Source: Desulfoscipio geothermicus (GTDB lineage: Bacteria; Bacillota; Desulfotomaculia; Desulfotomaculales; Desulfallaceae). From it: a stretch of 64,000 nucleotides of DNA. A program made the position numbers and the translations under genes. The notes beneath the pieces were generated by a model. The model saw only the letters and a program-made list of their open reading frames with translations, was not told the origin of the DNA and did not search any database. Location of the stretch: positions 115,917 to 179,916 of the forward strand of contig JAENZP010000004.1 of the NCBI GenBank assembly GCA_016841205.1, read 5' to 3'. This document shows positions 9,243 through 64,000 of the stretch, in pieces; within the stretch, counting starts at the first letter, position 1, and every line of letters begins with the position of its first letter.

Positions 9243-11111
9243 ATGATCGGCAAAATGCTGGGAAACAGGTATGAAATACTGGAAAAACTGGGTGGCGGCG
9301 GTATGGCCATTGTTTATAAAGGCCGGGATACCTTTTTAAACCGCTATGTAACCATTAAGATTTTACGCCCCGAGTTTACCTCCGACGAAGATTTTATCAA
9401 GCGTTTTAAGCGCGAAGCCCTGGCCGTGGCCAGCCTGTCCCATCCCAACATTGTAAATATTCATGATGTGGGCCAGGAAGATAATATTCACTATCTGGTG
9501 ATGGAATATGTCCAAGGCGACAACCTTAAGAACATCATCCGTAAAAACGGGGTGCTTACACCAGAGCATGCCGTTCGTATCGCGGTACAGGTTTGTGAAG
9601 CACTGGAACATGCTCATGAAAACAATATTGTACACCGGGATGTCAAACCGCATAATATTTTAATTACGGATGGCGGGCGGGCCAAACTGGCTGATTTCGG
9701 TATTGCCCTGGAAGCTACTGCGTCTACGATTACCCGCACGGATACTATTATGGGCTCGGTACATTATTTAAGTCCTGAACAGGCCCGGGGTGAAATACCA
9801 ACCGCTCAATCGGATATTTACGCCGTAGGTATTTTATTATATGAAATGTTCACCGGTAAACAGCCTTATAGCGGCGACAGTCCCATAGCCGTGGCGATAA
9901 AGCATATTCAGGAGACCCCGCAGCCTGTTGATGAAGTTAATCATGACGTACCGGCTGAATTGGCAGCGGTAGTTATGCGGGCTATGGAAAAGAAGCCCGG
10001 AGACCGGTATAAAAGCGCCGGGGAGATGGCCCGCTATTTGGAATTGGCCCTTGAAGATACCGGACAGGCCACGATGGTTATTCCAGTAAATGAGGTCGTG
10101 GCCAAAGCGGAGTCCGGTGCAGCCAATAAAAAAACCGATGTTAAAACGCCCCGGAAAACCGGTGGATCAACCCGGCGGTTTTGGGTTTGGGCTACAGTTG
10201 TGCTGCTGGCGGGGCTATTGGCCGGGGGGTTATATGGCTTATATAATTTTATGAATGTTGAACCTTTTAATGTGCCTGATGTCGTTGGCAAGACTAAAGA
10301 ACAGGCCGATGAGGAACTGAGTGCGCTGGGACTAACGCCCAGATTTATTGAAGAGTACGACAAAGAAGAGAAGGGCATAGTCATACGCCAGAGCATTGGA
10401 CCGGAGGACGCTGAGGTCAAACCGCCCCGGGAGGTTATCCTTACGATAAGCAAAGGCCCTGAAATGTACGAGGTGCCTGATTTATATAACGTAACGGATT
10501 ACGAAGCGGAGTATAGGCTAAACGAGGCCGGGTTAAAGCTGGCCCGGCCCCCGGCTGAAATATACCACGATCAGGTTGCCAAGGGGAATGTTGTGCTGCA
10601 GTCTCCCGACTCAGGCGAACAGGTACCCAAAGGGACGGAGGTACAGATTACTATCAGTAAGGGTCCGGAGCCGATTATAAAAAAGGTTCCCGATTTAATT
10701 CGCAATACCTTGGATGAGGCCCGGTCTATTTTAGCGGCTCTAAATTTGGTGTTAAATGAAGATGATATTAAACAAGAATTTGCCTCAGGCTTTTTAAAAG
10801 GGCAAATTACCGGCCAAACTCCTGCACCAGGTACGGAGGTGGAAGAGGGGACGAAGGTTAGCGTGGTAGTAAACAACGGTCCCGGACTGGTGGAGAGGAC
10901 GGCCAAGGTTAAAATATCGGATGAAATACCCAATGATGGAGATTCTCACCTGGTGGAAATAATAGTAGAAGATGCCCAGGGCAGCACGGTTCAATATGCC
11001 AATTCCCATAAGGCCGGCGACAAAATAAATGAGAATATAACTTACCTTGGCAGCGGGGTGGTGAAGGTATATATCGACAAAGAATTGATCTGGGAAGAGA
11101 ACTTAAAATAG
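9243..11111 (+). CDS. prkC: Ser/Thr protein kinase with PASTA repeats (PrkC/PknB-like)
   Basis: Kinase motifs (VHRDVKPHNILI, ADFGIA), TM helix, three PASTA repeats (VPDVVGKTKEQADEEL...). Confidence 0.95.
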   Translation: MIGKMLGNRYEILEKLGGGGMAIVYKGRDTFLNRYVTIKILRPEFTSDEDFIKRFKREALAVASLSHPNIVNIHDVGQEDNIHYLVMEYVQGDNLKNIIRKNGVLTPEHAVRIAVQVCEALEHAHENNIVHRDVKPHNILITDGGRAKLADFGIALEATASTITRTDTIMGSVHYLSPEQARGEIPTAQSDIYAVGILLYEMFTGKQPYSGDSPIAVAIKHIQETPQPVDEVNHDVPAELAAVVMRAMEKKPGDRYKSAGEMARYLELALEDTGQATMVIPVNEVVAKAESGAANKKTDVKTPRKTGGSTRRFWVWATVVLLAGLLAGGLYGLYNFMNVEPFNVPDVVGKTKEQADEELSALGLTPRFIEEYDKEEKGIVIRQSIGPEDAEVKPPREVILTISKGPEMYEVPDLYNVTDYEAEYRLNEAGLKLARPPAEIYHDQVAKGNVVLQSPDSGEQVPKGTEVQITISKGPEPIIKKVPDLIRNTLDEARSILAALNLVLNEDDIKQEFASGFLKGQITGQTPAPGTEVEEGTKVSVVVNNGPGLVERTAKVKISDEIPNDGDSHLVEIIVEDAQGSTVQYANSHKAGDKINENITYLGSGVVKVYIDKELIWEENLK

Positions 11112-28721: not shown

Positions 28722-28902
28722 CAGCTTTAAACCCCCTATGCATCAAGAAGACCTAATAATAAATTTATGTGCAAATGTTTACCATGATTACTTGATATTG
28801 TTTAACCTATAAATTGCTATCTTCATTTGTGGATGGCATTTCTTACCGATGATCAATACCACACTTGACAAATAACCTACATATTTTATATAATTTTACC
28901 TG

Positions 28903-59711: not shown

Positions 59712-60167
59712 TCTTTTGCGAACGCAGGGTTTCTGGTCAATAATTTAATACTTGATTTACCATTTAACATACAACTATACTAATTAAATAGCTACACATT
59801 ATATGTCGCCAAAATACATCACAGGCAGGTTTATTATTTATTGCCAGGGACCTGGAAAGCGAGATGTTTATATACATGATCATTGGGGAAAGGTTGAAAC
59901 TAAAAAAATGGAATATAGAAACCAATCTATTTAGTAAAAAGCGGAGTTTAAACGAGTTTTTGCCGGGGATAGCAGGGGTAACCTAACGGGCTGCCCCTTG
60001 TTTGTCTATTACTTGCTATCCATGATAGAACCTAGGTGATAAACTATGAACAAGGGACTTGAAGATCTAATATTGGGAAAAGTGATGAATAGTTTGAATA
60101 TGCCAGCCCTGCCATTGTTTATACTTATTACGTGCATGTTGGTAATGCAAAGAAGGAGGACAAGCTT

Positions 60168-60782
60168 ATGCTAGTTTTTGGCGTTATTTCCCCTCATCCA
60201 CCCATCATTATTCCGGAGATAGGTGGCGCAGAGACTGAAAAAGCCACCAAAACCATATCGGCACTTGAAACAGCAGCTAAAAGGTTGACCGATGCCAAAC
60301 CTGACAAATTGATTATTATTTCGCCGCATAAAGATCATGGCTATGCGGTGCCCCTTTACTATCTTGCCCGACATTTACCTCTCAGCACCAAGTTGGAACA
60401 AATTAGGATCATAGACCCTTCTTATGAGTACTATTTTAATCTCGGGAAAGAATACGGCACTGAAATCGACCAGTCGGATCTGCGCACGGCTGTGATAGCC
60501 TCGGCAGATCTATCTCATGTCTTAAAAGACGACGGACCCTACGGTTATAACCCTGCAGGACCCAAACTGGATGAAACTATCGTTAATGCGGTTCGCGAAA
60601 AAGATGCCCAAAGGCTGCTGGATCTTGACCATGCCTTGCTTGAGGACGGAGCTGAATGCGGCTTACGGTCAATATTGTTTTTGCTCGGCGTGTTTGTGGG
60701 CAAAGAATATACGACGGAGGTATTATCCTATGAAGGACCCTTTGGCGTAGGCTACATGGTGGCTACTTTCGAAATTAAATAA
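60168..60782 (+). CDS. LigB-like/AmmeMemoRadiSam protein B family, apparently internally shortened
   Basis: ISPHPPIIIPEIGG, ISPHKDHGYAVPLYYL, VIASADLSHVL, GPFGVGYMVATF. Confidence 0.8.
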   Translation: MLVFGVISPHPPIIIPEIGGAETEKATKTISALETAAKRLTDAKPDKLIIISPHKDHGYAVPLYYLARHLPLSTKLEQIRIIDPSYEYYFNLGKEYGTEIDQSDLRTAVIASADLSHVLKDDGPYGYNPAGPKLDETIVNAVREKDAQRLLDLDHALLEDGAECGLRSILFLLGVFVGKEYTTEVLSYEGPFGVGYMVATFEIK

Positions 60783-62531: not shown

Positions 62532-62886
62532 CCTAAGTTACTGCTTCCAGGAAAGGCCCACTACAGTTATTCCTTCGTAGCTTAAAGATCATAGATATTT
62601 AACAAAATAATAAATTGACCGGCCCCGCCAGAACCGCATCCGGGATAATCACTATCCGGTTGATGTTAAACCTGTTTTACTTCATAAGTGCCTAGGATAT
62701 TGTTCCGTCTGCTTTCTGGTAATTAAGACTAATTCCTAGGCTAGGGAATTATGCCCCTTCGCCGGAGTTGGTTTAATTTTAGCAAAATTCGTTGGGAAAA
62801 GCATTATATTTAAAATAAATGATAATCACACCCAATAAGTGCTTTTCATAGCATAAAATTATAAAATACGTTTTGGGAGGAAAATA

Positions 62887-63588
62887 ATGCACAGGCCTAA
62901 TCTAAATGATCTACCTCCAAATGAAAGAACTTTATTGGCAAGTTTAATCCAGCAGTATACTACCCCTGACATTATAGACATGCATTGGAATGCCGTATTA
63001 TCCGGTGTTCATAACGATCCAGCCGGGTTTCTTTCGTTTCATAGAAACTATATTGGTGGTTTGGAAGCCTTCTTATTGGAGCAGGGTTATCCACAATTGG
63101 TGCCACTGCCGGCGTGGAACCCGGCAGAACCAATACCAGAGGAATTTAATATTCCTAATACCGGCCCTGAGAGACTGCGAAATTTGAATCCAAACGTAAG
63201 TTTTTCACCAAAGTTTGACCAGGAGAATCTAATAAATTATGCCACTGTTGAAGAACTGGGTGAGGCTTTAATGATCAGACATAACTTGGTTCATGCAAGA
63301 ATAGGTGGAGTAATGAATAACCTTAGACGTGTACCAGTCGCACCTATTTTCTGGGTATTTCATAGTTTTATAGATGATATCTGGTGGGATTGGCAGAGGG
63401 TAACCGTAGTTGTTCCCTCAGTTATCGGATTGAGCCTGGCAGACGCGACAAGCATGTTGGGCAATTTTGGTTTTCGTACCATGATGACGGCGAATTTGTA
63501 TACCTCGCCTTGGATACAAATAAAGCATCAAAAGCCTGCACCTTTAACTTTAAGTCCCCGTGGTACTATAGTCGAATTGTATTACTGA
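62887..63588 (+). CDS. Tyrosinase-like type-3 copper protein with C-terminal PASTA domain
   Basis: CuA HNDPAGFLSFHRNYIGGLE; CuB HNLVHARIGGVM and APIFWVFHSFIDDIWWDWQ; C-terminal VVPSVIGLSLADATSMLGNFGF... Confidence 0.85.
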   Translation: MHRPNLNDLPPNERTLLASLIQQYTTPDIIDMHWNAVLSGVHNDPAGFLSFHRNYIGGLEAFLLEQGYPQLVPLPAWNPAEPIPEEFNIPNTGPERLRNLNPNVSFSPKFDQENLINYATVEELGEALMIRHNLVHARIGGVMNNLRRVPVAPIFWVFHSFIDDIWWDWQRVTVVVPSVIGLSLADATSMLGNFGFRTMMTANLYTSPWIQIKHQKPAPLTLSPRGTIVELYY

Positions 63589-63887: not shown

Positions 63888-64000
63888 TTGACACAGACAG
63901 ACACAAAGTGCTACAATACAATTCCGGTCGCGAAAACGGCCGAACGGTCCTTGAAAACTAAACAGTGCAAAGAGATGGAAATCGGAAGCCAGTCGTGAAT
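63888..64000 (+). promoter_or_regulatory. Probable rRNA operon promoter and leader; operon continues beyond window
   Basis: TTGACA 63888-63893, 18-bp spacer, TACAAT 63912-63917, then ccttgaaaactaaacagtg leader. Confidence 0.65.

Follow-up and report, generated by a model that had tools for sequence, protein, structure and literature searches.

A compact tyrosinase-family protein with a predicted PASTA tail and a sigma-K-like promoter motif in Desulfoscipio geothermicus and related Bacillota

Small tyrosinases and the solitary gene of D. geothermicus

As O2-requiring enzymes, tyrosinases are usually counted among those of aerobic copper users. In a comparative survey, most anaerobes were found to be copper non-users, CotA occurred only in Bacillales, and tyrosinase was present in 1% of the copper users (PMC2147054). 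Very small bacterial tyrosinases of 14–18 kDa, called type IV, have been described from Streptomyces and B. thuringiensis (PMC4033337). Mutation of the six histidines, of the glutamate acting as water keeper, or of the residue next to the first CuB histidine (HisB1+1) abolishes or strongly alters activity, and short HisA1–HisA2 loops are known from some bacterial tyrosinases (review PMC11608171). Among spore proteins, SpoVID is a cytosolic coat protein with a LysM domain of the peptidoglycan-binding type that binds lipid II (PMC10659427). The enzyme family described below is itself known; the new features are its fusion to PASTA, its small size, the host in which it occurs, and its promoter.

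The window (the whole 64,000-nucleotide stretch of Desulfoscipio geothermicus DNA that was analyzed) contains on its forward strand an intact reading frame of 233 codons with an ATG start (62887..63588), preceded by the ribosome-binding site GGGAGG (62875..62880, forward strand). The encoded tyrosinase-PASTA protein of 233 aa is conserved over its full length, at 57–82% identity, in five other genomes. It contains no cysteine, and inspection of the N-terminus confirmed that a signal peptide is absent, as the sequence-only reading had suspected. A distance of 412 bases separates the frame from the end of contig C19 of its genome, and it is the sole tyrosinase-like match there; sequence resembling an rRNA operon leader was seen at 63900–64000, with the contig end just beyond it.

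The tyrosinase-PASTA gene is solitary. When the neighborhoods of all copies were compared, no neighbor conserved across lineages was found, and no caddie-like (cofactor) gene was noticed adjoining any copy. Neighbors were in common only within the genus and were therefore taken as synteny, not function; an operon partner or caddie was set aside. The syntenic upstream genes comprise a stand-alone protein that reads like a MEMO/class III dioxygenase-like domain (60132–60782) together with nitroreductase and HD-domain-like genes. The window's genome also has a frame of 828 aa containing two HMA domains and an HMA protein of 68 aa; their sizes suggest a copper P-type ATPase for the former and a CopZ chaperone for the latter. 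With these two genes, copper handling probably exists in the host.

Predicted tyrosinase core and PASTA-like tail

Residues 1–172 (62887..63402, forward strand; 19.8 kDa, cysteine-free) correspond to a compact tyrosinase core, which stands alone in four orthologues. In hmmscan, the tyrosinase domain PF00264 scored 65.2 bits (E 1.5e-17), the cut-off being 22.6, and the same model matched 10/10 orthologues at E ≤ 1 (best 1.1e-19). PDB sequence searches with the protein returned hemocyanins and tyrosinases, chiefly via the CuB region. The AlphaFold2 model of the core, with pLDDT >80 over most of its length, has the predicted four-helix bundle of tyrosinases. Its best PDB matches were all tyrosinases of Priestia megaterium and S. 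castaneoglobisporus with a probability of 1.00, the matches being modest otherwise (TM ~0.5, Foldseek E 4e-3). By all tests run, on profiles and models alike, the predicted protein is a member of the tyrosinase (type-3 copper) family, which agrees with the domain originally proposed for 62887–63588.

Residues H33, H42, H52, H132, H136, H159, E123, and N133 are invariant across the ten orthologues (coordinates below are on the forward strand). CuA reads H33-X8-H42-X9-H52 and CuB reads H132-X3-H136-X22-H159, so the candidate ligands for both coppers noted earlier are present, with the addition of H33, which had not been listed. H33 (HisA1, 62983..62985) was assigned by position; the HisA1–HisA2 loop is only 8 residues long, and in MAFFT H33 aligns poorly with the longer loop of other tyrosinases. 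H42 (HisA2, 63010..63012) is invariant both in the family and in comparison with Priestia and Streptomyces, and it is separated from H52 (HisA3, 63040..63042) by 9 residues, one more than in the usual H-x8-H. E123 (63253..63255) takes the water-keeper position and aligns with the LEG glutamate of the Priestia enzyme. HisB1 and the first activity controller at HisB1+1 are H132 and N133 (63280..63285), and HisB2 is H136 (63292..63294). HisB3 is H159 (63361..63363); it is preceded by the invariant F158, which occupies the place of the seventh histidine of nearly all solved tyrosinases. In the alignment, HisA2, HisA3, the three CuB histidines, the Glu, and the Asn coincide with those of the Priestia filamentosa and Streptomyces tyrosinases. 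The CuB signature cited in the sequence-only reading begins D-P-x-F; the segment here reads A-P-I-F, and Phe rather than His precedes HisB3. A thioether bridge is absent because the protein has no cysteine. A two-copper site is thus predicted, at which we infer copper binding and catalysis.

The tail (residues 174–232; 63406..63582, forward strand; tail pI 9.4) begins directly after the CuB helix, without a linker. In the window protein, it matched PF03793 by hmmscan with E 0.0017 and 18.7 bits, which is under the curated cut-off of 23.2 bits; we therefore call it PASTA-like by fold and not a Pfam-certified member. PASTA was matched in 6/6 fused orthologues (E as low as 8e-4), and hhalign against the PASTA repeats of this genome's PrkC gave 83% and E 8.8e-6. 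The repeats used for that comparison, three in number, belong to a PrkC-type kinase that is likewise encoded in the window (10269–10874). Folded alone, the tail reached pLDDT 72, and the first 22 PDB matches of this model were all PASTA proteins (PknB, PrkC, PBP1, PBP2x; probability up to 1.00). The tail is accordingly modeled as a single, divergent, and basic PASTA fold. The full-length joint model gave the position of the tail a very low confidence and hence predicts no contact between tail and active site; this model was set aside, its tail part not being trustworthy. The four core-only orthologues end at approximately residue 172 with no in-frame trace of a tail downstream, and PASTA, absent from 4/10 orthologues, therefore cannot be essential to the family. 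Profile and fold searches matched both halves of the protein, and the C-terminal PASTA unit of about 60 residues proposed at the outset is borne out. The idea that it tethers the enzyme as a peptidoglycan-binding module fared less well: the PASTA assignment holds, but the domain is divergent, single, basic, and dispensed with in four orthologues.

Distribution and a sigma-K-like promoter motif

An intact copy was present in 9/113 genomes of the order Desulfotomaculales, the window's included, and a decayed fragment in one more (G055, L010); with so few intact copies, the function is dispensable. Intact frames with every catalytic residue conserved were found in ten genomes. Relatives that carry a name comprise Sporotomaculum syntrophicum, Desulfoscipio geothermicus, Desulfocucumis palustris, and Peptococcaceae/Desulfotomaculum MAGs, all strict anaerobes that live as syntrophs or by sulfate reduction. 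UBA1874, a more distant Bacillota genome, has another complete fusion, 57% identical. One copy is truncated (G191, L058) and another is cut by a contig end (G139, L059). The relics are a CuB-to-PASTA fragment in G055 (L010:1522–1635) and an N-terminal fragment in G191 (L058:1499–1749). Of 398 genomes sampled from the phylum, only G000 and G157 had a match to PF00264 itself; many of the family-profile matches at ~5e-4 in the phylum scan were ordinary PASTA proteins of 576–735 aa, not tyrosinases. No relative was detected in viral contigs or, at 1e-5, in plasmids, and plasmid matches at E ≤ 10 were only distant tyrosinases of ~30% identity or short CuB matches. In the core tree, both pairs of core-only proteins were supported, their joint position was not, and the root was unsure; at least two changes, gains or losses of PASTA, are required. 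Only six intact fused copies occur in the genomes searched, and no paper on a tyrosinase with PASTA or on tyrosinase in Desulfotomaculum was found in the literature searched, although annotation databases may show the fusion. The architecture thus appears neither well described nor widespread.

A sigma-K-like promoter, ACACC-N14-CATAGCATA, is predicted at 62828..62855 on the forward strand (-35 part 62828–62832, -10 part 62847–62855). The sequence there is ACACCCAATAAGTGCTTTTCATAGCATA, lies ~30 nt 5' of the start codon, and exactly matches AC-N16/17-CATANNNTA, the sigma-K promoter form. The published sigma-K motif consists of a five-base -35 element, 14–16 bases, and a ten-base -10 element (Eichenberger et al., PMC517825). 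With TA or TG permitted at the end, the motif stands at about the same place in 6/10 orthologues, which represent at least two promoter lineages with little other sequence in common; dinucleotide shuffles gave a chance of 0.2–3% per upstream region. It is missing from the other four upstream regions (BICA1-7, BRH_c4b, D. palustris, and UBA1874). No good sigma-E promoter match was found near the start within the family.

Across the window's genome, ACACC-N14/15-CATANNAT had 17 matches vs. 4 for the reversed control. Intergenic matches with a start 21–43 nt downstream preceded the tyrosinase gene, yabG, a ferritin/rubrerythrin-like gene, a DUF2935 gene, and one small peptide gene. yabG is controlled by sigma-K or sigma-E/K in B. 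subtilis and C. difficile (sigma-E/K in the latter) and is the single dedicated sigma-K gene of a published sporulation signature (PMC10681294). The ferritin/rubrerythrin-like protein (L046:886–1473, reverse strand) has 9 Tyr in residues 21–52, and this Tyr-rich protein is a candidate substrate of the tyrosinase. The small peptide is hydrophobic and rich in Gly and Cys (L039:1283–1402, reverse strand). It belongs to a family of Gly-rich peptides of 33–42 aa with a FILFLILILLVFGMGF-type core, also found behind the motif in Sporotomaculum (L095, L097, L099, and L108); no model in the profile library matched these peptides, which presumably resemble YjcZ-type sporulation peptides.

With a slightly wider pattern, Sporotomaculum had 20 matches vs. 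3 in the control and G034 had 12 vs. 5, the tyrosinase being among both. The motif also precedes YtaF in G034 and, in Sporotomaculum, yabG, four small peptides, and a homologue of the CotA spore-coat laccase (L103:1584–3026), which runs off the end of its locus and matches CotA of B. subtilis at E 3e-143; here, the motif lies ~50 nt 5' of the start. This CotA-type homologue comes from a strict anaerobe, the syntroph Sporotomaculum syntrophicum. The strict motif was also located inside several genes and 65 nt before murC in the window's genome. Across three genomes (L044, L088, and L101), the distance to murC is 54–65 nt, and a sporulation promoter for cortex precursor synthesis is possible there. 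A looser form matches at 28861 in the window, probably as part of a vegetative promoter. In view of these murC, intragenic, and 28861 matches, motif matches alone are no proof. The putative tyrosinase promoter resembles the promoters of late genes for the spore envelope, and since the motif is common to the tyrosinase and sporulation genes, we read the protein as a late mother-cell phenol oxidase of the spore envelope. The sequence-only reading had offered a spore role as a guess, which now has this backing.

Proposed role, alternatives, and known systems

We propose a small type-3 copper phenol oxidase that would be made in the mother cell, deposited on the spore, docked by PASTA, and set to oxidize once O2 arrives; we consider this reading slightly more probable than an even chance. 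A promoter of the sigma-K (or sigma-E/K) type would switch the gene on late in sporulation, and the protein would join the spore envelope from the mother-cell cytosol. Assembly of the envelope from that cytosol would explain why a signal peptide is absent, which is odd for a PASTA protein and expected for a coat protein. In the fused forms, the tail may dock the enzyme at the forespore surface or cortex through peptidoglycan or its precursors, in the manner of the LysM domain of SpoVID. As the enzyme needs O2, it would act only after spore release or accidental aeration. The released spore would then meet O2 and copper, and tyrosines or small phenols would be hydroxylated and oxidized to quinones that harden or darken the envelope while O2 is consumed. 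The most likely substrate would be tyrosines of coat proteins, after the spores meet oxygen.

The tail could instead be an intramolecular cap or copper-handling lid that replaces a caddie and binds no peptidoglycan. In many bacterial tyrosinases, a caddie or a beta-rich C-terminal domain blocks premature activity (PMC9454253; PMC4033337), no caddie gene was seen beside any copy here, and the tail is joined straight to the CuB helix with zero linker. We nevertheless think a cap unlikely: four orthologues persist without a tail, the leading fold matches of the tail are all PASTA rather than caddie or tyrosinase C-terminal domains, and the joint model, in which tail confidence is very low, predicts no tail contact with the active site. 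A low probability is likewise given to a spore enzyme that removes O2 or small phenols during germination or exposure and does not cross-link proteins. The relatives are strict anaerobes (a syntroph and sulfate reducers), cytochrome bd is absent from the window's genome, and among the other genes behind the motif are ferritin/rubrerythrin-like and laccase genes, whose products act on O2 or iron, all of which would suit scavenging. A tyrosinase, however, needs an electron-donating phenol, so that sustained scavenging would require a substrate pool, and other O2-reducing enzymes would be cheaper for an anaerobe.

A further alternative is a vegetative tyrosinase that modifies peptides or phenols and has no relation to spores, the motif being a coincidence. 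Some enzymes of the family are biosynthetic (o-aminophenol oxidases and PvdP, which are weak matches here), and the motif is lacking in 4/10 upstream regions. Against these points, the gene is solitary with no conserved biosynthetic neighborhood, the motif recurs at approximately equal distance in two promoter lineages that are clearly distinct, and yabG is preceded by the same motif in two genomes; we regard a vegetative role as rather improbable. Least credible, and in our opinion very improbable, is a remnant gene on its way out without enzyme function: the patchy distribution and the relics in G055 (L010) and G191 (L058) would fit it, but ten genomes keep intact frames with all catalytic residues.

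On the reading of a late spore-envelope phenol oxidase, the protein is probably a spore-coat oxidase, unexpected in an anaerobe. The conserved tyrosinase with its spore-type promoter, together with the CotA homologue behind the same motif in one relative (Sporotomaculum), suggests that spore-formers with an anaerobic life retain copper oxidases for the single stage that travels through air, and the PASTA tail would give the spore envelope a further domain of the peptidoglycan type. More tentatively, and with some doubt, spores of strict anaerobes may carry a dormant, peptidoglycan-anchored tyrosinase, accompanied by a CotA laccase, that O2 switches to coat cross-linking and O2 use-up. If this is true, the spore coat would have an oxygen-triggered finishing step, silent during anoxic sporulation, in which Tyr-rich coat proteins become cross-linked.

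Of the known systems, the caddie-less tyrosinase of Priestia (Bacillus) megaterium (PDB 3NM8, 8HPI) is the best structure match, being alike in Pfam domain and fold, in the six histidines, Glu water keeper, and Asn at HisB1+1, and in having no Cys thioether. The core here has 172 aa vs. ~290, no seventh histidine, and a very short HisA1–HisA2 loop, and it differs further by the additional C-terminal PASTA, the spore-type promoter, and the anaerobic host. Unlike the caddie-dependent (MelC1/MelC2) tyrosinases, the copies here have no caddie-like gene noticed beside them. The core-only orthologues, at ~20 kDa, are close in size to the type IV tyrosinases as described. CotA of Bacillus is also a copper oxidase, located in the spore coat; as a multicopper oxidase, it has an unrelated fold, and its homologue in Sporotomaculum has the promoter motif in common with the tyrosinase. 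The tail is alike in fold and sequence profile to the PASTA domains of PrkC/PknB and PBP2x/SpoVD, but those are extracellular and repeated, whereas here a single one is found in a protein without an export signal. SpoVID and SafA, which are cytosolic mother-cell coat proteins with a wall-type binding domain (PMC10659427), offer an analogy only: theirs is LysM without an enzyme, while here PASTA is combined with one.
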